From assembly GCF_012277275.1 (NCBI RefSeq), contig NZ_CP051155.1, positions 434,001-498,000 on the forward strand: DNA of 64,000 nucleotides, read 5' to 3'. The translations under genes were made by a program, and so were the position numbers. The first letter of the stretch is position 1. Each line of letters opens with the position of its first letter. Of the stretch, positions 14,650-64,000 are shown one piece after another. The notes under the pieces are model-generated. The model ran no database searches. It saw only the letters and a list, made by a program, of their open reading frames with translations, and was not told where the DNA came from. This DNA comes from Gephyromycinifex aptenodytis. GTDB taxonomy: Bacteria > Actinomycetota > Actinomycetes > Actinomycetales > Dermatophilaceae.

Positions 14650-17600
14650 TCAGACCTTGAAGTAGGAGGCGTCGGGGTGGTGCACGACGAGTGCGTCGGT
14701 GGACTGCTCAGGGTGCAACTGCAGTTCCTCGGACAATTCGACGCCGATCCGTTCAGGTTCCAACAGCTTCACCAAGGTGACCCGGTCTTCCATCTGCGGG
14801 CAGGCCGGGTAGCCGAAGGAATACCGGCAACCGCGGAACTTCACGTCCAGGATGTCCGAGAGCGGTAGTGCCTCGTCGATCCCCAGCTCCTCGCGCACCC
14901 GGGCGTGCCACAGTTCGGCCAACGCCTCGGTGAGCTGCACCGAGAGCCCGTGCAGCTCCAGGTAATCGCGGTACTTGTTCTCGGCGTAGATCTGCGCCGT
15001 CACATCGCTGACGTGAGCGCCCATCGTCACCAACTGGAAGGGGATGACATCGGGGCGCCCATCGGCCTCGTAGGCCTGCTTGGTGCGGAAGAAGTCGGCC
15101 AGGCACTGCCGCCGGTCGCGACGCTGCCGCGGGAAGGTGAATCGCGCCCGAACGTCGCCGGTGGTGTGCGAGCCGTCCTCGTCCTGACCGTCTTCGTGCC
15201 ACAGCACGACCAGGTCGTTGCCTTCGGAGTAGCACGGGAAGTAGCCGTAGACGACGGCCGGGTTCATGATCTCCTCGGTGGCGATCCGGTCCAGCCACAT
15301 CCGCAGCCGGGGGCGCCCTTCGGTCTCGACCAGGTCTTCATAGCTGGGGCCGTCCTGCCCGCGGGTCGGACGCAGACCCCATTGGCCCAGGAACGTCGCA
15401 CGTTCATCGAGGTAGGCCGCGTACTCGGCCAGCGCGATGCCCTTGACCACGCGCGTCCCCCAGAACGGCGGGGTCGGGATGCTGTGGTCGCGGCTGATGT
15501 CCGCAGGCGTCGTGTCATTGACATCGGGCAGGTCGTCCTTGGCGGCGGCGTTGGGCCGGACTCGACGCTTGCGCAGCTCCGGCAAGACTTCTGCGAGATC
15601 CACCGAGGGGTCGTCCTTGGCCTTGGCGACAGCGTCCATCAGGCGCAGGCCCTCGAACGCGTCCCGGGCGTAACGCACATGGCCCTGGTACACCTCGGCG
15701 AGATCCTGCTCCACGTAGGCGCGGGTCAGCGCGGCGCCGCCGAGCATCACCGGGAAACGTTGAGCGAGGTCCCGGGTGTTGAGCTCCTCGAGGTTCTCCT
15801 TCATCACCACCGTGGACTTCACGAGCAGTCCGCTCATGCCGATGGCGTCGACGCCGTGGGTGGTCGCGGCCTCGATGATTTCGTTGGCAGTCTTCTTGAT
15901 GCCGAGGTTGACGACCTCATAACCGTTGTTCGACAGGATGATGTCGACCAGGTTCTTGCCGATGTCGTGAACGTCGCCTTTGACCGTGGCCAACAGCACC
16001 TTCGCCTTGGCCTGGCGGGTGCCGCCACCGGCCGCGACCTGCTCTTCGATGATGGGTTCCAGGTAGGCCACCGCGGCCTTCATCGTCTCGGCGCTCTGCA
16101 ACACGAACGGGAGCTGCATCGTGCCCGCGCCGAACCGCTCACCGACGATCTTCATACCTTCGAGCAGGTGGTCGTTGATGATTGCCAGGGCGGGCTTGCC
16201 GGAGTCGACGGCTTCCTGCAGGTCCGGCTCCAGCCCTTGGCGTTCCCCGTCGATGATGCGCTGGGCGAGGCGCTCATCCAGCGGCATCGCCGCGAGCTCC
16301 TCTGCCCGGGAGGCTTTCAGTGATGCTGAGTCGACGCCCTCGAACAGTTCCAGCATCAACGACAGCGGGTCGTAGGTGCACTCGCTGGTACCCGGCTCCC
16401 CCGCCCACTCCCGGCGGTCGTGCACCAGGTCGAAGGCGACCTTGTACTGGTCTTCGGGGATGCGCGCGATCGGCAGGATCTTCGCCGAGTTGACGATGGC
16501 GCTGCTCAGACCGGCCTTGACACACTCATCCAGGAAAACCGAGTTCAGGACCACTCGCGCAGCCGGTTTCAATCCGAAGCTGACATTGGAGACACCCAAC
16601 GTGGTCTGCACACCGGGGTAGCGCCGAGTGATCTCCCGGATCGCCTCGATGGTTTCGATGCCGTCGCGGCGGGTCTCCTCCTGCCCGGTGGCGATCGGGA
16701 AGGTCAGGGTGTCGACGATGATGTCCTCGACGCGCATCCCCCACTGCCCAGTGAGCGCCTCGATCAGGCGGGTGGCCACGGCGACCTTGTGTTCGCGGGT
16801 GCGTGCCTGACCCTGCTCGTCGATCGTGAGTGCCACCACGGCGGCACCGTGCTCGGAGACCATCCGCATGACCCGCTCAAAACGTGAACCGGGCCCCTCG
16901 CCGTCTTCGTAGTTCACCGAGTTGATGACGGCCCGACCACCGACGCGTTCCAGACCGGCCTGGACCACATCGGGTTCGGTGGAGTCCAGAACAAGCGGCA
17001 GCGTGCTGGAGGTGTTGAAGCGCGAGACGATCTCGGCCATGTCGCCGGCGCCGTTGCGGCCCACATAGTCCGCGCACACGTCTAGCAGGTGCGCCCCGTC
17101 GCGGGTTTGATTCTTGGCGATCTCGACGCAGTCGTCCCACTTCTCGGCAAGCATCGCCTCACGGAAGGCCTTGGAACCGTTGGCGTTGGTCCGCTCCCCG
17201 ATGGACAGGAAGCTGGCGTCCTGCCGGAAGGGCACGGCGGTGTACAACGAGGCGACCCCGGGTTCCGGATTGGGCTCGCGGGCCGGGATGGGCATCCCCC
17301 CGACGGCTTGCACAACCGCGGCCAGGTGCTCGGGGGTGGTGCCGCAGCAGCCGCCGACGAGGCTGACGCCGTACTCGCGAACGAAGCCGGCATGCGCCTG
17401 GGCGAGTTCCTGCGGGGACAACGGGTAGACCGCGCCGTGCTTGCCCAGCTGCGGCAGCCCCGCGTTGGGCATGACCGAGATGGCCACGCGCGCGTTCTTG
17501 GACAGGTGGCGCAGGTGTTCGCTCATCTCGGCCGGGCCGGTGGCGCAGTTCAGACCGATCACATCGATGCCCAGCGGCTCCAGCGTCGTCAACGCCGCAC

Positions 17601-18222
17601 CGATCTCGCTACCCATGAGCATCGTGCCTGTGGTCTCCACGGTGACCTGGGCGATGATCGGTACGTTCTCCTCCAGCTCGCCCATCGCCCGCTTGCAGCC
17701 GATGATCGCCGCCTTGGCCTGCAACAGGTCCTGGCTGGTTTCGATGAGCAGAGCGTCCGCGCCGCCGCGGATCAGACCCCGCGCGCACTGCTGGTAGGCA
17801 TCCCGCAAGGTCGCGAACGGTGCGTGCAGCAACGAGGGCAATTTGGTGCCCGGCCCCATCGAACCCAGCACGAAGCGCGGCTTGTCATCGCTGGACCAGG
17901 CATCCGCCGCCTCGCGGGCCACGGCGGCTCCGGCGTGGGCCAGCTCTTCCACGCGTTCGGGAATGTCGTACTCGGCCAGGTTGGCGAAGTTCGCACCGAA
18001 AGTGTTGGTCTCGATCGCATCGACCCCGACCTGCAGATAGGCCTCGTGGACGCTGCGCACGATGTCGGGGCGCGTCACGTTGAGAATCTCGTTGCAGCCC
18101 TCGAGCTGATCGAAGTCCTCCATCGAGGGGTTCGCGTCCTGCAGCATCGTGCCCATCGCGCCGTCGGCGATGATCACACGTTCGGACAGCAGGGCGCGGA
18201 AACGATCGGAGCGGCTGCTCAC
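14650..18222 (-). CDS. metH: cobalamin-dependent methionine synthase
   Basis: Transfers methyl from 5-methyl-THF to homocysteine. All four modules are present. The homocysteine domain (1 to about 320) has zinc ligands C226 and C292/C293 in GGCCGTTPEH. The pterin domain spans about 335-600. The B12 cap and Rossmann domain span about 640-870, with DVHDIG at 750-755 and His752 as the cobalt ligand. The AdoMet reactivation domain runs from about 910 to 1190. Length is 1,190 residues, normal. The GTG at 18222 has GAGG 9 nt upstream. The leader is only about 35 nt, too short for a cobalamin riboswitch. Confidence 0.97.
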   Translation of the reverse strand: MSSRSDRFRALLSERVIIADGAMGTMLQDANPSMEDFDQLEGCNEILNVTRPDIVRSVHEAYLQVGVDAIETNTFGANFANLAEYDIPERVEELAHAGAAVAREAADAWSSDDKPRFVLGSMGPGTKLPSLLHAPFATLRDAYQQCARGLIRGGADALLIETSQDLLQAKAAIIGCKRAMGELEENVPIIAQVTVETTGTMLMGSEIGAALTTLEPLGIDVIGLNCATGPAEMSEHLRHLSKNARVAISVMPNAGLPQLGKHGAVYPLSPQELAQAHAGFVREYGVSLVGGCCGTTPEHLAAVVQAVGGMPIPAREPNPEPGVASLYTAVPFRQDASFLSIGERTNANGSKAFREAMLAEKWDDCVEIAKNQTRDGAHLLDVCADYVGRNGAGDMAEIVSRFNTSSTLPLVLDSTEPDVVQAGLERVGGRAVINSVNYEDGEGPGSRFERVMRMVSEHGAAVVALTIDEQGQARTREHKVAVATRLIEALTGQWGMRVEDIIVDTLTFPIATGQEETRRDGIETIEAIREITRRYPGVQTTLGVSNVSFGLKPAARVVLNSVFLDECVKAGLSSAIVNSAKILPIARIPEDQYKVAFDLVHDRREWAGEPGTSECTYDPLSLMLELFEGVDSASLKASRAEELAAMPLDERLAQRIIDGERQGLEPDLQEAVDSGKPALAIINDHLLEGMKIVGERFGAGTMQLPFVLQSAETMKAAVAYLEPIIEEQVAAGGGTRQAKAKVLLATVKGDVHDIGKNLVDIILSNNGYEVVNLGIKKTANEIIEAATTHGVDAIGMSGLLVKSTVVMKENLEELNTRDLAQRFPVMLGGAALTRAYVEQDLAEVYQGHVRYARDAFEGLRLMDAVAKAKDDPSVDLAEVLPELRKRRVRPNAAAKDDLPDVNDTTPADISRDHSIPTPPFWGTRVVKGIALAEYAAYLDERATFLGQWGLRPTRGQDGPSYEDLVETEGRPRLRMWLDRIATEEIMNPAVVYGYFPCYSEGNDLVVLWHEDGQDEDGSHTTGDVRARFTFPRQRRDRRQCLADFFRTKQAYEADGRPDVIPFQLVTMGAHVSDVTAQIYAENKYRDYLELHGLSVQLTEALAELWHARVREELGIDEALPLSDILDVKFRGCRYSFGYPACPQMEDRVTLVKLLEPERIGVELSEELQLHPEQSTDALVVHHPDASYFKV

Positions 18223-57562: not shown

Positions 57563-58027
57563 ATGTTGCGATCGTTCTCAGGCACTCGTACGCGTTTAGC
57601 TGCGGCTGGCACCCTCGCTCTCGTTCTCTCTGGTGGCCTCAATGTGGCCGCCGCACCCTCCTCCGACGCCGCCATCAGCGCGTCCAAAGGTCGCCAGGCG
57701 GTAAGCATCGCCAGCACCAAGCGGGGAACCCCCTACCGTTGGGGCGCCACAGGCCCCCGCTCTTTCGACTGCTCCGGGTTCACCAGCTGGACCTTCAAGC
57801 GTCTCGGCAAGAGCATCCCGCGCACTGCCCACCAGCAGTACCGCGCCAGCATGAAGATCAGCCGTCGCTCTGCCCGCCCGGGCGACCTCGTCTTCTACGG
57901 TGGCAAGCGCAAGTACCACGTCGGCATCTACGCCGGTAACGGTCGCATGTGGCACGCCCCCCGCACGGGTGACGTCGTCAAGCTCGCCAAGGTGCGCGGT
58001 AACGCCTCCTACGGCCGCGTGCGCTGA
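57563..58027 (+). CDS. secreted NlpC/P60 peptidoglycan hydrolase
   Basis: 154 residues. A signal peptide (residues 1-36, with TRLAAAGTLALVLSGGLNVAA as hydrophobic core) precedes one NlpC/P60 domain. The catalytic Cys70 is in RSFDCSGFTSW, with His119 in KYHVGIYAGNG and His131. It cleaves stem peptides (typically gamma-D-Glu-meso-DAP bonds) in the cell wall. There are no SH3 or LysM repeats, so it is a minimal form. The ATG at 57563 follows a riboswitch; no clear ribosome site is visible. A terminator follows. Confidence 0.92.
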   Translation: MLRSFSGTRTRLAAAGTLALVLSGGLNVAAAPSSDAAISASKGRQAVSIASTKRGTPYRWGATGPRSFDCSGFTSWTFKRLGKSIPRTAHQQYRASMKISRRSARPGDLVFYGGKRKYHVGIYAGNGRMWHAPRTGDVVKLAKVRGNASYGRVR

Positions 58028-58108: not shown

Positions 58109-59587
58109 TCAGAGGTCGCGTGGCAACTCCCGCTTGAGGATCTTCCCGGTGGCGCCCTTGGGAAGCTCCGGGATCACCCGGATCTCACGCGGGTACTTGT
58201 ACGCAGCCACCCGCTCCTTCACGAACGCCGCGAGCTCCTCGGGGTCGATGCTCATCCCGGGCTTGGGGGCGACATAGGCCGCCACTTCCTCGCCGAAGTG
58301 GTCGTGCGGGATTCCCACGACAGCAGCCTCGGCAACGCCGGGGAACAAGTGCAGTACCTCTTCGACCTCGCGCGGGTAGACGTTGTACCCGCCGCGGATG
58401 ATGAGGTCCTTGGTGCGGTCGACGATGAAGTAGTAACCATCCTCGTCGACCCGCGCCAGGTCGCCGGTATAGAACCAGCCGTCGCGAATCGCCTCCGCGG
58501 TGGCTTCGGGGCGATTCCAGTACCCGCGCATGATGTTCTCGCCGCGGATCGCGATCTCGCCCACCCCGCCGGGTTCGACGTCGCCGGGCTGGCCATCAAC
58601 CCGCATGAGCTTCATCTCCACGCCGCGGATGGGCGTTCCGATGGAGCCGGGTTTGCGCTCGGCGTCGGGGTGGTTGAAGGAGGTCACCGGCGAGGTCTCC
58701 GACAGCCCATAGCCCTCCAGGATCACGCAGTGGAACTTCTCCTCGAAAGCACGCATGAGCTCCACCGGCATGGAGGCCCCACCGCTGATACACAATCGCA
58801 GCGAGGAGGTGTCGGCCTCGTGGTCGACATTGAGCAGGGCGCCGTACATCGTCGGCACGCCGAGGAAGATGGTGACCTTCTCGGAAGCGATGAGATCGAG
58901 CACCGCAGCCGGCTGGAAGCGGGGAATGAGCGCAAGGGTGACCCCGTTGGCGATCGCCACGTTCAGCCCGCAGGTCATCCCGAAGACGTGAAACAGCGGC
59001 AAAGCCCCCATAACGACGTCGTCGGGCTCCAGGGACAGCAAGGTCTCCCCGGTGGTGCGCTGGTTGGTGCGCAGGTTGCGGTGCCGCAGTTCAGCGCCCT
59101 TGGGCGAGCCGGTGGTGCCTGAGGTGTACAGCAGCACGGCAGTGTCCTCATCGTCACGCTCGACGATCTGTGCCAACGGCTGCACCGTGCCCAAGACCGC
59201 GGGCAAGTCTGTGACGGCGAGGAAGTCCACACCGGCCTCGGCTGCGCCGCGCATGGCATCAGAATCAGGCAGGCCGATCATCAGACGGGTGCCGCTGTCC
59301 GTGAGGTAGTAGCTCACCTCCCGGGGGCGCAGCAGCGGGTTCATCGGAACCACGATGACTCCGCCGTAGAGAGCCCCGTAGTAGGTGACCGCGAACGCCG
59401 GGATATTCGGCAAGCTCACCGCCACCCGATCACCAGGCTCGATGCCTTTGGAGTGGAGGTAGGCGCCAAAACGAGCAGCAGCGTCGTTGAGACGTGCGTA
59501 GGTCCAGCTCTCCTCCCCCTGTATGAGAGCGATGCTCTCCGGCCGTGAACGGGCTGATTCAGCGAGGTTGCAGGCGAGGTTCGTCAT
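58109..59587 (-). CDS. long-chain acyl-CoA synthetase (AMP-forming)
   Basis: 492-residue adenylate-forming enzyme. Motif A3 YTSGTTGSPKGAEL near residue 160, GYGLSETSPVTS, the A7 YTGDLARVDEDGYY, A8 DRTKDLIIRGGYNVYPREVE, and the catalytic Lys in TGKILKREL near the C-terminus. It is typical of fatty-acid CoA ligases of about 500 residues. The ATG has GGAGG 5 nt upstream. It lies 71 nt downstream of the alr stop on the same strand, but its role in ornithine use is unclear. Chain-length preference cannot be predicted. Confidence 0.9.
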   Translation of the reverse strand: MTNLACNLAESARSRPESIALIQGEESWTYARLNDAAARFGAYLHSKGIEPGDRVAVSLPNIPAFAVTYYGALYGGVIVVPMNPLLRPREVSYYLTDSGTRLMIGLPDSDAMRGAAEAGVDFLAVTDLPAVLGTVQPLAQIVERDDEDTAVLLYTSGTTGSPKGAELRHRNLRTNQRTTGETLLSLEPDDVVMGALPLFHVFGMTCGLNVAIANGVTLALIPRFQPAAVLDLIASEKVTIFLGVPTMYGALLNVDHEADTSSLRLCISGGASMPVELMRAFEEKFHCVILEGYGLSETSPVTSFNHPDAERKPGSIGTPIRGVEMKLMRVDGQPGDVEPGGVGEIAIRGENIMRGYWNRPEATAEAIRDGWFYTGDLARVDEDGYYFIVDRTKDLIIRGGYNVYPREVEEVLHLFPGVAEAAVVGIPHDHFGEEVAAYVAPKPGMSIDPEELAAFVKERVAAYKYPREIRVIPELPKGATGKILKRELPRDL

Positions 59588-59658: not shown

Positions 59659-60786
59659 TCAGATATAGAGACGTCTCACACGCGGAGCCAGCGAGCAGGT
59701 GATCTCGTAGGAGATGGTGCCCAGGTCCTGCGCCATGTCCTGAGCGGTGTAACGCTGCGAGCCGCTGACCCCCAGCAGTACAGCCTCATCCCCTACCTGC
59801 ACCTGCGGGTCGGCGCCGACATCGATCATCGTCTGGTCCATGCATACCCGCCCAACCACGGGGTAGGCCCGGCCGCCGATCAACACCTGACCGCGGTTGG
59901 ACAGGTGCCGGTCGAAGCCGTCTGCGTAACCGACGGGGATCGTGGCTATCCAGGTGGGTCTACGTGGTGCCCAGGTGCGCCCGTACCCGACGGAGGTTCC
60001 CGCCTCGACCCGCTTCAGGAAAGACACCTGGGTAGCCCAGGTCAGCGCAGGTTGCAGGTCGATGGTGCGCGGCGTGCTCTCATCGGGGTAATAGCCGTAG
60101 GCCATGATTCCGGGGCGCACCATGGTGAACCAGGACTCTTCGTGGGCCAGCACACCGCCGGAATTGGCGGCGTGCACCAACTCCACCTCGCGCCCGATCG
60201 CCGCCTGGACCTGTTCGAGGCTGGCGGCGAAACGCGCTATCTGATTGGCGGTGAACTCAGCCTGCTCCGGGGTGTCGCTGGCCGGGAAGTGCGTGAAGAT
60301 CCCCTGCAGGTGCAGGTGCGGACATTCGCTTTCGATCAGCCGCGCCACCGCTGCCGCGTCCTGGGGTGCCACCCCGATCCTGCCCATTCCGGTGTCGATC
60401 TTCAGGTGCACCGGGACGGGGGTGCCCCCCATCCGCGCAGCCGCAGCTTCCGCGGCCAGCGCGGTGGGCTCGCTGACGAGGCTCAACGTCACCTCAGCCG
60501 CGATGGCTGCATCGAGCTCGTCGTCGAAGGCATGCGACAACTTCAGGATCGGCGCGTGGATCCCACCCCGGCGCAACTCAATGGCTTCGGGCACGGTGGC
60601 CACCCCGAACCAGTCCGCAAGGCCGGCGGCTTCGACCGCCCGGCATACGGGTACTGCGCCGTGCCCGTAAGCGTTCGCTTTGACGGCCATCAGAACTTTG
60701 CGACTCGCGCCGACCGCAGCGCGGATGCCGCGTAGGTTGTGACGAATCGCTTCCAGATCGACGCGCGCATGGGTCTTGTACAGCAT
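59659..60786 (-). CDS. alr: alanine racemase-family PLP enzyme
   Basis: 375 residues. Fold-type III TIM barrel with the PLP Lys36 in VKANAYGHG, an Arg in HLKIDTGMGRIG, and the catalytic Tyr268 in SVGYGRTW, followed by IPVGYADGFDRHLSNRG and CMDQTMID. These residues are complete, so it should be an active racemase. Its place directly behind the ornithine-racemase-type gene suggests broad substrate use, or an alanine role after D/L-Ala release; this is inference. A ribosome site (GAGAGG) overlaps the end of the upstream gene, so the two are coupled. Confidence 0.88.
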   Translation of the reverse strand: MLYKTHARVDLEAIRHNLRGIRAAVGASRKVLMAVKANAYGHGAVPVCRAVEAAGLADWFGVATVPEAIELRRGGIHAPILKLSHAFDDELDAAIAAEVTLSLVSEPTALAAEAAAARMGGTPVPVHLKIDTGMGRIGVAPQDAAAVARLIESECPHLHLQGIFTHFPASDTPEQAEFTANQIARFAASLEQVQAAIGREVELVHAANSGGVLAHEESWFTMVRPGIMAYGYYPDESTPRTIDLQPALTWATQVSFLKRVEAGTSVGYGRTWAPRRPTWIATIPVGYADGFDRHLSNRGQVLIGGRAYPVVGRVCMDQTMIDVGADPQVQVGDEAVLLGVSGSQRYTAQDMAQDLGTISYEITCSLAPRVRRLYI

Positions 60787-60798
60787 CCTGTGTTCCTC

Positions 60799-61878
60799 TC
60801 AGCCGCGCCGGACGACCTTGTCGACATAGGCGGAGGTCGACAGGCCCAGCAACGCACCGTAGTTGGGGACGAAGGACACCTCCGCGCCCAGAGCCACCGG
60901 GTACACCGCATCCTCGACGTCCAGGATGAGGTGGTCGCTGCTGGCGCCGATCACCGAGATGCCGGGGTCTAGCGGAACGATTCCGTCCACATTCGTGTCC
61001 TGGCGCCCGAGGTTGCAGATCGCCCGCAGACGTCGTCCGCGATCGTCGAACTCCACCGTCTCACCGAAGGCATTCTGAGCGCGTAAGCCGATAGGAACCG
61101 AAGGTTTGCGTTCCAATTCGACAATCTCGGTCACCAGGGTGAAGGTGTCCTGCCGAGTGCCGGGCCAGGCGCTGCGGTCGAGGACGTTACGCCCCAGGGC
61201 GACCGTCTCGCCGATGCGGAAGTGGTTGATCTCCGCGGGCATCTGATCGTTGGCGATCATCGGCAGACTCGAACTATTGCCACCCGAAATGAGTTCCAGC
61301 GCCAATCCACTGGCATCGCGGGCTGCATCGCGCACGTCGATGAGCATCTGCATGTTCTCCGGTGAGGGAATGACTCCCCCGTAACACGCCAGGTTCGCCC
61401 CCACGCCGATGAGCTCCAGGTTCGGCAGTTTGGCCGCGGCCACGACGACATCGACCGCCATATCCGGCCACACGCCTTCGCGCAGGTCACCGATGTCGAT
61501 CATGAGAATCGCCTGGTGCGTCGTGCCCGCCATCTGCGCAGCCTGGGAGAGCACCTGCAGGCTCTGCAAACTCGAGTTCAAGGTGATGTCAGCCCAACGC
61601 ACCACATCGTGCGCCGCCGAGGGCGCCGGAATCCGCAGGAGCATCTGCGGCAACCCGGTGCCGAGGTGGCTGGACTCCATGAGGTTGGTGATCCGAGAGT
61701 CCGCGACCATGTCGGCTCCGGCCGAGGCCATCGCCGTGATGACAGCCGGGTGGGCGCAGGTGACCTTGCCGACCGCCGCAACCTGTGCGCCATGTCCATG
61801 GACCAGGGCGTAGACCGTGCGGGCGTTCTCGGCGATCCGATCTGGGTAGATCTCGAGCCGCGGCGTGCGGTGATGCAT
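60799..61878 (-). CDS. orr: ornithine racemase-type PLP protein (alanine racemase N-terminal family)
   Basis: 359 residues. PRLEIYPDRIAENARTVYALV opens the barrel; PLP Lys38 lies in VAAVGKVTCAHP, and ELISGGNSSSLPMI and NHFRIGETVALGRNVL are characteristic of ornithine racemases and YhfX-like proteins. It would interconvert L- and D-ornithine ahead of D-ornithine 4,5-aminomutase, as in clostridial ornithine clusters. It starts with a 1-nt stop/start overlap (TGATG) with the reactivase gene. The name is by similarity and context; lysine racemization is the main alternative. Confidence 0.8.
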   Translation of the reverse strand: MHHRTPRLEIYPDRIAENARTVYALVHGHGAQVAAVGKVTCAHPAVITAMASAGADMVADSRITNLMESSHLGTGLPQMLLRIPAPSAAHDVVRWADITLNSSLQSLQVLSQAAQMAGTTHQAILMIDIGDLREGVWPDMAVDVVVAAAKLPNLELIGVGANLACYGGVIPSPENMQMLIDVRDAARDASGLALELISGGNSSSLPMIANDQMPAEINHFRIGETVALGRNVLDRSAWPGTRQDTFTLVTEIVELERKPSVPIGLRAQNAFGETVEFDDRGRRLRAICNLGRQDTNVDGIVPLDPGISVIGASSDHLILDVEDAVYPVALGAEVSFVPNYGALLGLSTSAYVDKVVRRG

Positions 61879-63254
61879 CAGGGCTCCTCGTTCTGCGACT
61901 CTTGCACTCGACGTCGGAAGGTCTCACGAACCTCATCCGGGTAGGCGTGCGCCAGGGTGCCCAGCGCCGAGAACAGGTATTTGCGATCCATGAAGACCCT
62001 CGCCTCCGGGGGTGGGAGCAAGTGCGTCGGGCCGGTGCTGGGTTGCGCGCCCAGACAGATTGCCTGCAGCGCCTTCTCCCCACCGGCAACCTTCGTCAAC
62101 GCTCCCCCGGTAGCCACCACCCATTCGACCGCGGTGAGGTCCTTGCCACGCACGACCTGCTTTTTACCCGTGGGGGTGTAGATGTCGTCCAAGGTGCCTG
62201 CATGGCGCCGGACACCGATCTCCACCGCCTTCGTGCACAACCACTGAGTGAGCTCGATCTCGCGCTCGGCGCTCGGCATCGCACGCAGATCTGCCAACCG
62301 CGCACTCCACGTCTCGTCGCCGACCGCGCGGGCGATGTTCTCGGCATTGACGAAGACCCCGAGGTCACCCTCGACCGTGCGCTTCGACCTCGGCTCCGGC
62401 TCGAGCATCTTGGCCGACAACTCGATGCTGCCGTCGGTCACCGAGTGCACATCGGTGGTGGCTCCCCCGACATCGATGATGACGGCATCACCGACCGCCT
62501 CGCTGAACAGTTCCGCTGCCCGCAGAACAGCCCCGGGGGTCGGCAGGATCTCAGCGTGGGTCAGCCCAGCCAGGCGCGACATGCCGGGCGCGTGCACGAT
62601 GTGACGGCTGAAGACCTCATGAATGAGGTTGCGCAGCGGACCGACGTTGAGCACGTCCACATCCGGGAAGACATTGTCGGCCAGGAGAATCTCCACCCCG
62701 GCCTGCTCGAAGATACGGGTGATAGGGCGAACGATGGCCTTGTTCCCGGCGTACACGACCGGCACCATGCGGGCCTCCGCGCCCAGACCCTTGGACAGCA
62801 GTTCGGCCAGAAGCTCGGCGTTGCGCAGCACGATTCGCGTCTCACCGTGATCCACCCCGCCGGCGAGCAACACCATGTTCGGCGCGATCTCACGGACATC
62901 GTCAAGGTCGTAGGACTCCAGCGGACCCGCGGTGACCGCGGTGACGATAGCGCCGGCCCCCAGCGAGGCCTCCCGCGCCGCGCGAGCGGTCATGCTGGCC
63001 GTCAAGCCGTGCACCGTCATGCGCAGACCACCGGCGGCGGAAGAGTTGACGAAGGTCTCCAACCCGGTCGGGTCCTCCCCCAACGCCGTTCCGACCTCCC
63101 GCAGGGCGGCGTCGACCCCGATTCCGACGTCCCCCTGGGCGACCGAGGTCGGGGCGAACCCCTGGGCGACGTGGGTGAAGACCCCGCCGCCCAGGGAGAA
63201 CGCGTTGACCTTCGTGATCGTGCTGCCGATCTCGACGGTGAGGACGTCTGCCAT
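61878..63254 (-). CDS. GlmL/MutL-type ASKHA protein, putative aminomutase reactivase
   Basis: 458 residues. ASKHA-fold ATPase: phosphate-1 motif TVEIGSTITKVNAF at residues 5-18 and VIIDVGGATTDVHSV in the second lobe, with VVATGGALTKVAGG near the end. The family accompanies B12 mutases, such as glutamate mutase GlmL, and the ornithine aminomutase locus of clostridia, where it is thought to release damaged cobalamin. The ATG at 63254 starts 2 nt after the aminomutase stop. A longer frame upstream overlaps the mutase gene and is not used. Confidence 0.85.
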   Translation of the reverse strand: MADVLTVEIGSTITKVNAFSLGGGVFTHVAQGFAPTSVAQGDVGIGVDAALREVGTALGEDPTGLETFVNSSAAGGLRMTVHGLTASMTARAAREASLGAGAIVTAVTAGPLESYDLDDVREIAPNMVLLAGGVDHGETRIVLRNAELLAELLSKGLGAEARMVPVVYAGNKAIVRPITRIFEQAGVEILLADNVFPDVDVLNVGPLRNLIHEVFSRHIVHAPGMSRLAGLTHAEILPTPGAVLRAAELFSEAVGDAVIIDVGGATTDVHSVTDGSIELSAKMLEPEPRSKRTVEGDLGVFVNAENIARAVGDETWSARLADLRAMPSAEREIELTQWLCTKAVEIGVRRHAGTLDDIYTPTGKKQVVRGKDLTAVEWVVATGGALTKVAGGEKALQAICLGAQPSTGPTHLLPPPEARVFMDRKYLFSALGTLAHAYPDEVRETFRRRVQESQNEEP

Positions 63255-63256
63255 GC

Positions 63257-64000
63257 TCACGCCCGCGCTCGCAGCGTCTTCACCATCGCGTCCACAACCT
63301 GAATGCCCTTCGTACCGCGCCCGAAGGTGGCATCCAGGCCGGTCTCGGCGGCCATGTCCCGGTTGACCTGGGTGCCGCCGGCGATGAGGACGAACCGGTC
63401 TCGAACACCCTTTTCCACGCACAGCTCAGCCAAGCGCCGCATCATCGTGCGGTGGACGTCGTTGTGGCTGATGATCGTGGAGATGAGGATGGCGTGGGCG
63501 CCCGTTTCGATGGCTGCGTCCACCAGTTTGCCCAGCGGGACCGAGGTGCCGAGGTAGTCGTACTTGACCCCGTACTTTTCGATACCGCCGTGTTTGATGT
63601 CGAGGATCTCTCGCAGCCCGACGCTGTGCTCGTCCTCGCCCACGGTGCCGGCGACCACGCGCAGACCGCGCGCCTTGGCCTCTGCTCGGAGTTCCTCCTC
63701 GGGCAGGATGATCTCCTTCTCCGGGATGTGTAGCGTGTCCCGCTGGATGTCGAAGGCGACCTTGCCCTTGACCTCGACGAAGGTGCCCTCGGCCTCGTGC
63801 ATGACCTCGACGTTGACCACCACCGGATCGGCCAGCCCCATCCGCTTGGCCATCTCCTCGGCATAGACCGGAGCGATGTCGGCGTTCTCCGGCACGAACA
63901 GCTGCACCAGCACCGTTCCGTCGCCGGCCCACTCCGCTTCGGGCTTGATCTGGCCACCGGTGCGGTAGGGCCGGGTCTTCTCCAGCCGCGTCTCGACGCT
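63257..64000 (-). CDS. oraE: D-ornithine 4,5-aminomutase E subunit, cobalamin/PLP domain (5' end cut by window edge)
   Basis: The C-terminal 247 residues are visible and the frame is open to the right edge. RLEKTRPYRTGGQIKPEAEW leads in; the B12 site is DEHSVG (DxHxxG), and 11 residues after the His comes the PLP Lys in LDIKHGGIEKYG, the same spacing as in lysine 5,6-aminomutase beta. HNDVHRTMMRRLAEL and LIAGGTQVNRDMAAE then GRGTKGIQVVDAM match OraE (GGTQV, GRG-KGI) better than KamE (GGPRI). It would convert D-ornithine to 2,4-diaminopentanoate with OraS. Whether the full gene is the large OraE or a separate KamE-like subunit cannot be decided here. Confidence 0.78.
   Translation of the reverse strand, partial: SVETRLEKTRPYRTGGQIKPEAEWAGDGTVLVQLFVPENADIAPVYAEEMAKRMGLADPVVVNVEVMHEAEGTFVEVKGKVAFDIQRDTLHIPEKEIILPEEELRAEAKARGLRVVAGTVGEDEHSVGLREILDIKHGGIEKYGVKYDYLGTSVPLGKLVDAAIETGAHAILISTIISHNDVHRTMMRRLAELCVEKGVRDRFVLIAGGTQVNRDMAAETGLDATFGRGTKGIQVVDAMVKTLRARA

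Follow-up and report, generated by a model that had tools for sequence, protein, structure and literature searches.

The right-hand end of the window, a stretch of 64,000 nucleotides from the actinobacterium Gephyromycinifex aptenodytis (contig NZ_CP051155.1, positions 434,001 to 498,000 of the forward strand), carries a minus-strand operon with the gene order ord, ortA, ortB, oraS, oraE, or-4, orr and alr. It runs past the window edge and is complete in the genome, which is assembled as one contig of 3,449,783 bases (G000). The first seven genes are predicted to encode the oxidative degradation of ornithine and the eighth an alanine racemase. We propose that this racemase, built into a complete ornithine operon, has very probably displaced the housekeeping alanine racemase gene in members of the family Dermatophilaceae. 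Strain NJES-13, to which the available text of PMC8779670 ties the species name, is described in the available text of PMC8400323 as a member of the Dermatophilaceae from emperor penguin faeces.

Within the window lie the C-terminal 247 codons of oraE (63257..64000), which span the dimerisation and B12 domains; the whole gene, cut by the window edge, encodes 746 amino acids and extends to approximately window position 65497. It is followed by or-4 (61878..63254), a GlmL/MutL-family gene for a presumed reactivating factor of the aminomutase, read here as 458 amino acids from an internal ATG that corresponds to residue 57 of a listed 514-residue open reading frame, then by orr (60799..61878; ornithine racemase, 359 amino acids) and alr (59659..60786; 375 amino acids), with intergenic gaps of 2, -1 and 12 nucleotides (nt). 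Upstream of oraE, to the right of the window and up to genome position 502781, lie oraS, ortB, ortA and ord on the same strand, named from NCBIfam and Pfam models: ord and ortA are 9 nt apart, ortA and ortB overlap by 4 nt, ortB and oraS are separated by 118 nt, and oraS and oraE overlap by 4 nt. The original prediction had placed the four contiguous genes of the window with correct positions and gaps and had called the operon one of ornithine type, which the four genes beyond the edge bear out. It had listed the alanine racemase without recognizing in it what is the most unusual part of the locus.

Assignment of the ornithine pathway

The profile scores of most pathway proteins lie above the respective curated cut-offs: OraE reaches 1272.6 bits with the NCBIfam OraE model (cut-off 800), OraS 125.2 bits with Pfam OAM_alpha (29.7), Ord 502.6 bits (400), OrtA 113.5 bits (70) and OrtB 808.7 bits (550). 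The DEHSVG motif and the lysine expected to bind pyridoxal 5'-phosphate (PLP), 11 residues past the histidine of the motif, are both present as had been predicted, and correspond to His624 and Lys635 of the full-length protein. In a single numbering register six cofactor or substrate residues are identical to those of the Clostridium sticklandii enzyme (His225, Arg297, Gln299, Glu338, His618 and Lys629), including the equivalents of the axial B12 ligand His618, the PLP lysine Lys629 and the catalytic Glu338; the roles of these residues are taken from the available text of PMC3958899 and PMC4413051. His182 and Tyr187 fit only another register, in which they are conserved, and Tyr160 and Ser162 fit both.

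The original prediction had named a lysine pathway with flanking kamD, kdd and kce as the alternative, and this was not seen. OraE scores only 139.5 bits against a cut-off of 600 for the alpha subunit of lysine 5,6-aminomutase, and the KamDE test likewise gave 122.9 bits against 280. Lysine fermentation through kamDE and kdd/kce is further ruled out by the neighbors, which are ord, ortA and ortB, and none of the scanned operon genes belongs to a lysine pathway. As judged from these profile matches and neighbors, the gene set is predicted to be a complete cluster for oxidative degradation of ornithine, not of lysine. Arginine deiminase (480 of the required 489 bits on one model and above the cut-off on another), ornithine carbamoyltransferase and carbamate kinase are encoded in a cluster elsewhere in the genome, so that ornithine can be supplied. 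The deiminase model finds matches in 17 of 19 genomes, none of them over its cut-off, and the deiminase is therefore not special to the carriers of ora genes.

Two further genes touch this pathway. The window contains metH (14653-18222), coding for the cobalamin-dependent methionine synthase, which makes a use of B12 beyond OraE probable, a point that bears on use and not on synthesis. A gene for a ThrE-type exporter (L002:11942-13249, where window position equals L002 position plus 56,999) lies 159 nt upstream of ord; the other loci showed no match to it next to the operon, and it was not counted into the system. It could serve in alanine export or bear no relation to the operon.

The operon-type alanine racemase and the housekeeping site

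The alr product is assigned to the alanine racemase family, with 348 bits on TIGR00492 (cut-off 168), a match to a solved alanine racemase across residues 5-374, and the segment VKANAYGHG, which we take to be the PLP site. We compared 80 loci, those nearest to the window OraE among a larger number existing, and found alr immediately behind orr in 33 of them (gaps of 6-84 nt as aligned). Of the remainder, 3 have alr a few kilobases off, 22 show none within the available sequence, 19 have no orr in the available sequence and 3 leave no room for it. The adjacency is seen in none of the 11 Bacillota and Mycoplasmatota loci with orr and none of the eight such loci of Propionibacteriaceae, against 33 of the 39 others that have orr and room; loci with the adjacency come from Acidobacteriota, Chloroflexota, Myxococcota, Spirochaetota, Bdellovibrionota, Riflebacteria and Methylomirabilota. 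Thus, alr after orr is a recurrent extension of the operon outside clostridia.

The window Alr is 49-59% identical to operon Alr proteins of other phyla and 33-46% identical to actinobacterial housekeeping Alr. In the Alr tree 47 operon-type rows, comprising operon-linked copies and solo copies of Dermatophilaceae and Propionibacteriaceae, group together in a single clade (100/100), with the 18 actinobacterial housekeeping rows in another (100/100); three exact duplicates were dropped, and non-operon Alr of other phyla is thinly sampled with 9 rows. Forcing the actinobacterial operon-type rows in with the housekeeping rows is rejected (approximately unbiased test, p-AU 0.008). It could be argued that a clostridial-type ornithine operon landed by chance beside an ordinary alanine racemase, the window protein being a normal member of TIGR00492, and that the adjacency carries no meaning. 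This is contradicted by the 33 adjacent loci, by the gap in identity and by the separation of both types in the tree, and we regard it as hardly credible.

In the window genome a TIGR00492 search at an expect value (E) of 0.001 returned a single match, the operon Alr; this looser check also covered G013, G014 and the genomes of loci L014, L015 and L025. In the wider survey the family genomes were searched with the window Alr at E 1e-30, and "only match" below denotes one match at that threshold. A match was present in 180 of the 186 family genomes and absent from six. Taking at least 52% identity to the window Alr as the definition of the operon type (the next value is 46%), we found such a protein in 18 of the 186 genomes, namely all 12 carriers of OraE and 6 without OraE. 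It is the only match in 12 of these 18: the window genome, four Mobilicoccus, one Austwickia, two Arsenicicoccus (G078 and G079), G073 and three members of genus g15. All six operon-type carriers without oraE keep precisely this type as their only match. In a draw across the class, a match at E 1e-85 was seen in 4 of 394 genomes, including one that lies outside the family and lacks OraE.

The housekeeping locus itself has the order glmS-nnr-alr-hydrolase-tsaE-tsaB-rimI-tsaD. It retains alr in five reference stretches (three from genomes that also have the operon type and two from genomes that do not) and in three further operon-type carriers. In all 11 sole-copy genomes examined the locus lacks alr, and two of these, from g15, lack the hydrolase too; G087, 75% complete and with no nnr found, was excluded from this comparison, and G079 and G144 are 89% complete. 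The nnr and hydrolase matches of the window genome are 221 nt apart, a distance too short for an alr gene.

These data bear on two other accounts of the lone enzyme. Racemases of this fold can be promiscuous, and the operon Alr adjoins the ornithine racemase in the 33 loci, which would fit ornithine or diaminopentanoate, both compounds of the pathway, as its substrate in place of alanine. However, its score is twice the curated alanine racemase cut-off, and 12 of the 18 carriers have no other match, including six without oraE, in which the pathway it would serve is gone; this account is accordingly very unlikely. Alternatively, D-alanine for the cell wall might come from another, unrecognized source, so that the lone Alr would not be essential. 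OrtAB may release D-alanine directly, and the operon encodes another PLP racemase, Orr. Against this, there is no second TIGR00492 match at E 0.001, the genome has just two class IV aminotransferases, neither over the D-amino-acid transaminase cut-off and with best matches to aminodeoxychorismate (ADC) lyase and IlvE, and the six family members without oraE have kept exactly the operon-type alr. We consider such a source unlikely.

A sole full Alr match behind orr was also found outside the family, in a Holophagaceae metagenome-assembled genome (MAG) and in Chloroflexi bacterium 44-23, with the caveats that apply to MAGs. In Propionibacteriaceae (L107, L108, L058 and L063) the only full Alr match of three searched genomes, Cutibacterium porci (L058), Pseudopropionibacterium massiliense (L070) and Arachnia propionica (L077), is of the operon type and lies outside the ornithine operon. 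The sequences thus suggest a second family in which the operon type became the housekeeping enzyme.

Flanks, losses and origin of the operon

Downstream of alr the window contains an acyl-CoA synthetase-like gene that we call fadD by eye (58109..59587, minus strand), which is the flank of a conserved site and lies outside the pathway, and an NlpC/P60-like gene, also named by eye (57563..58027, plus strand), which is the second marker of that site. The mshC gene and the genes for the proteasome alpha and beta subunits and the proteasome ATPase, against which the original prediction had set the operon, are in the window too. The window genome and Mobilicoccus loci L014 and L015 share the arrangement sufS-sufU-sufT, operon, alr, fadD and nlpC; in a third Mobilicoccus locus (L013/L122) suf genes, operon and nlpC are present with no match to fadD. 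The pathway-less G073 shows sufT-alr-fadD, with the sufT and alr matches 74 nt apart, and the pathway-less G014 of genus g15 shows sufT-alr-nlpC. Three Arsenicicoccus loci have the operon behind ispH. Here G078, the sister of A. bolidensis in the species tree, preserves a direct scar of pathway loss with alr kept: the DNA alignment covers ispH at 95.5% identity, breaks off for 8,968 bases of A. bolidensis sequence, and picks up again at 87.5% inside the final ~170 nt of orr, continuing through alr. We infer pathway loss in G073, G014 and G079 as well; in these three genomes a search of the gap ahead of alr with relaxed settings returned no convincing trace of the pathway.

The alr-only arrangements at the suf site in G014 and G073 might instead be read as the original state, in which an operon-type alr unconnected with the pathway first took over the housekeeping role at the suf/fadD site and the seven pathway genes arrived beside it later. 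This order of events is quite unlikely, as orr and alr are adjacent in seven other phyla too, the alr of G078 is preceded by the end of orr with the rest of the operon deleted, and the Alr trees do not place the pathway-less Dermatophilaceae outside all operon-linked Alr. Returning to displacement by an operon-borne racemase, we counted losses on a species tree of five proteins from 19 genomes (G146 and G035 without TsaB, RimI and TsaD), assuming ancestral presence and no regain. For the 17 operon-type carriers the count is 6 losses of the housekeeping alr (4-7 over 500 bootstrap trees) and 4 of the pathway (3-5). Dropping these assumptions gives 5 changes for the housekeeping alr.

OraE is present in 12 of the 186 family genomes, distributed over 4 of 53 genera (that of the window genome, Mobilicoccus, Arsenicicoccus and Austwickia), and in 2 of the 394 genomes drawn across the class. 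OrtB accompanies it in all 12 and is absent from the five operon-type Alr genomes without OraE that were searched. By OraE identity the nearest non-actinobacterial loci are those of Acidobacteriota, Chloroflexota and Myxococcota, not those of clostridia; the window protein is 74-80% identical to the Acidobacteriota and Chloroflexota sequences and 61-64% to those of Bacillota and Mycoplasmatota. The bootstrapped OraE tree has 84 rows, after removal of exact duplicates and of matches with fewer than 600 aligned residues or under 45% identity. The ten Dermatophilaceae rows form one clade (100/99) and group with eight rows of Acidobacteriota, Myxococcota and Bdellovibrionota (74/73), and 13 Bacillota and Mycoplasmatota rows are set apart (100/99). 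This pattern suggests that the operon likely reached the Dermatophilaceae by transfer, with a clostridial donor not favored. The earlier proposal of transfer or of an unrecognized actinobacterial route stands in its first part, given the sparse occurrence; "unrecognized" can hold only for this family, as the available text of PMC9600381 already notes D-ornithine aminomutase in Propionibacteriaceae.

The operon also occurs in reduced or divergent forms. Three Austwickia loci (L020, L025 and L121) have no ortA or ortB between ord and oraS, and all three genomes encode a divergent OrtB (62-63% identity) elsewhere. In an Austwickia-like MAG (G083, listed contamination 5%) one of the contigs L119 and L120 keeps orr-alr-fadD without the remaining operon and the other runs from ord to or-4 without orr; the halves are complementary, and the OraE of the second groups with Propionibacteriaceae. 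Six loci, mostly of Riflebacteria (L057, L067, L068, L069, L073 and L075), have oraS and oraE only, with no match to ord, ortA, ortB, or-4 or orr within the available sequence, which is short in some. Riflebacteria loci L050 and L056 have two tandem ord paralogues ahead of ortA, 57-58% and 38-40% identical to the window Ord.

Proposed scheme and comparison with known systems

If the genes are expressed, and co-transcribed, and the enzymes act as assigned, Orr would convert ornithine to D-ornithine, and OraSE, using B12 and PLP and kept active by the GlmL-like Or-4, would shift an amino group to yield 2,4-diaminopentanoate. Ord would deaminate this oxidatively, and OrtAB would cleave the product with coenzyme A (CoA) to give acetyl-CoA and alanine, probably D-alanine. 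Alr would then drain the D-alanine to L-alanine when ornithine is in use, and make D-alanine for peptidoglycan when it is not. Entry of the operon into the Dermatophilaceae would have furnished a second Alr and rendered the housekeeping alr, presumably an essential gene, redundant, after which it would have been lost several times. The housekeeping copy would have been dispensable because two enzymes were able to supply wall D-alanine, and the operon alr would have been kept after deletion of the seven pathway genes because the cell depended on it once the other copy was gone.

Several points weigh against this scheme. Or-4 (498.2 bits on NF040744, cut-off 600, next to 465 on Pfam MutL) and Orr (387.9 bits on NF040742, cut-off 480) have these as their best-matching models and yet fall below the curated cut-offs, and Tyr160 of the clostridial OraE is replaced by Phe in one of the two possible registers. 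The LG+G4 Alr tree has long branches among its outgroup rows and does not unite the 19 actinobacterial operon-type rows (2 changes); a mixture-model tree places them in one clade (96). For OraE, a single clade of Dermatophilaceae and Propionibacteriaceae is not rejected (p-AU 0.199), so that one transfer or several may be involved. A broad-specificity racemase or a non-homologous source may also provide D-alanine. Finally, for C. difficile the available text of PMC8803604 has L-alanine instead of D-alanine as the predicted end product, which would weaken the reason for an Alr in the operon; in favor of the scheme, the available text of PMC3091704 states that ornithine oxidation in C. sticklandii yields D-alanine.

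It is conceivable, though we hold it to be possible rather than probable, that wall D-alanine supply has merged with catabolism, the sole Alr being co-transcribed with the ornithine genes and the D-alanine from OrtAB feeding peptidoglycan directly. If so, cells given ornithine or arginine would need Alr less, and both wall synthesis and sensitivity to cycloserine and other Alr inhibitors would vary with ornithine supply; an essential gene would have entrenched, and in places outlived, a dispensable operon.

The closest known system is the clostridial oxidative ornithine pathway of C. sticklandii and C. difficile. Its seven genes likewise stand in a single block and encode the same enzyme families, and the residues at the mapped cofactor positions of OraE are identical. 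The gene order here is that of complete Bacillota loci, but the window operon adds alr after orr, which none of the 11 Bacillota and Mycoplasmatota loci with orr does. For this racemase, which the clostridial clusters examined lack, the suggested role is handling the D-alanine thought to be released by the pathway. Propionibacteriaceae (Cutibacterium, Arachnia and Acidipropionibacterium) have the pathway operon in another actinobacterial family, with operon-type Alr in the genomes checked, but in none of their eight loci with orr does it lie directly behind that gene, and their OraE forms a separate clade in the best tree, with one origin not rejected. The actinobacterial housekeeping alr encodes the same enzyme family, presumably with the same cell-wall role, but falls in a different clade and locus. 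DadX is a racemase that serves amino-acid breakdown within a catabolic operon and in this resembles the operon Alr, but the window protein scores 177.5 bits with the DadX model (cut-off 600) and its genetic linkage is to ornithine genes instead of a D-amino-acid dehydrogenase.

Neither an alr inside an ornithine operon nor displacement of the housekeeping gene was found among the literature matches listed, which do not cover the 2009 cluster paper (J Bacteriol 191:3162) that may mention it. The pathway itself is well known. A presumably essential gene would have been replaced by part of a mobile catabolic operon, apparently several times within one family. The steps can be read in living genomes: some have both copies, some just the operon copy, some just the operon copy after loss of the pathway, and one a deletion scar. 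They offer a natural series in which to study how a dispensable operon comes to be difficult to lose.

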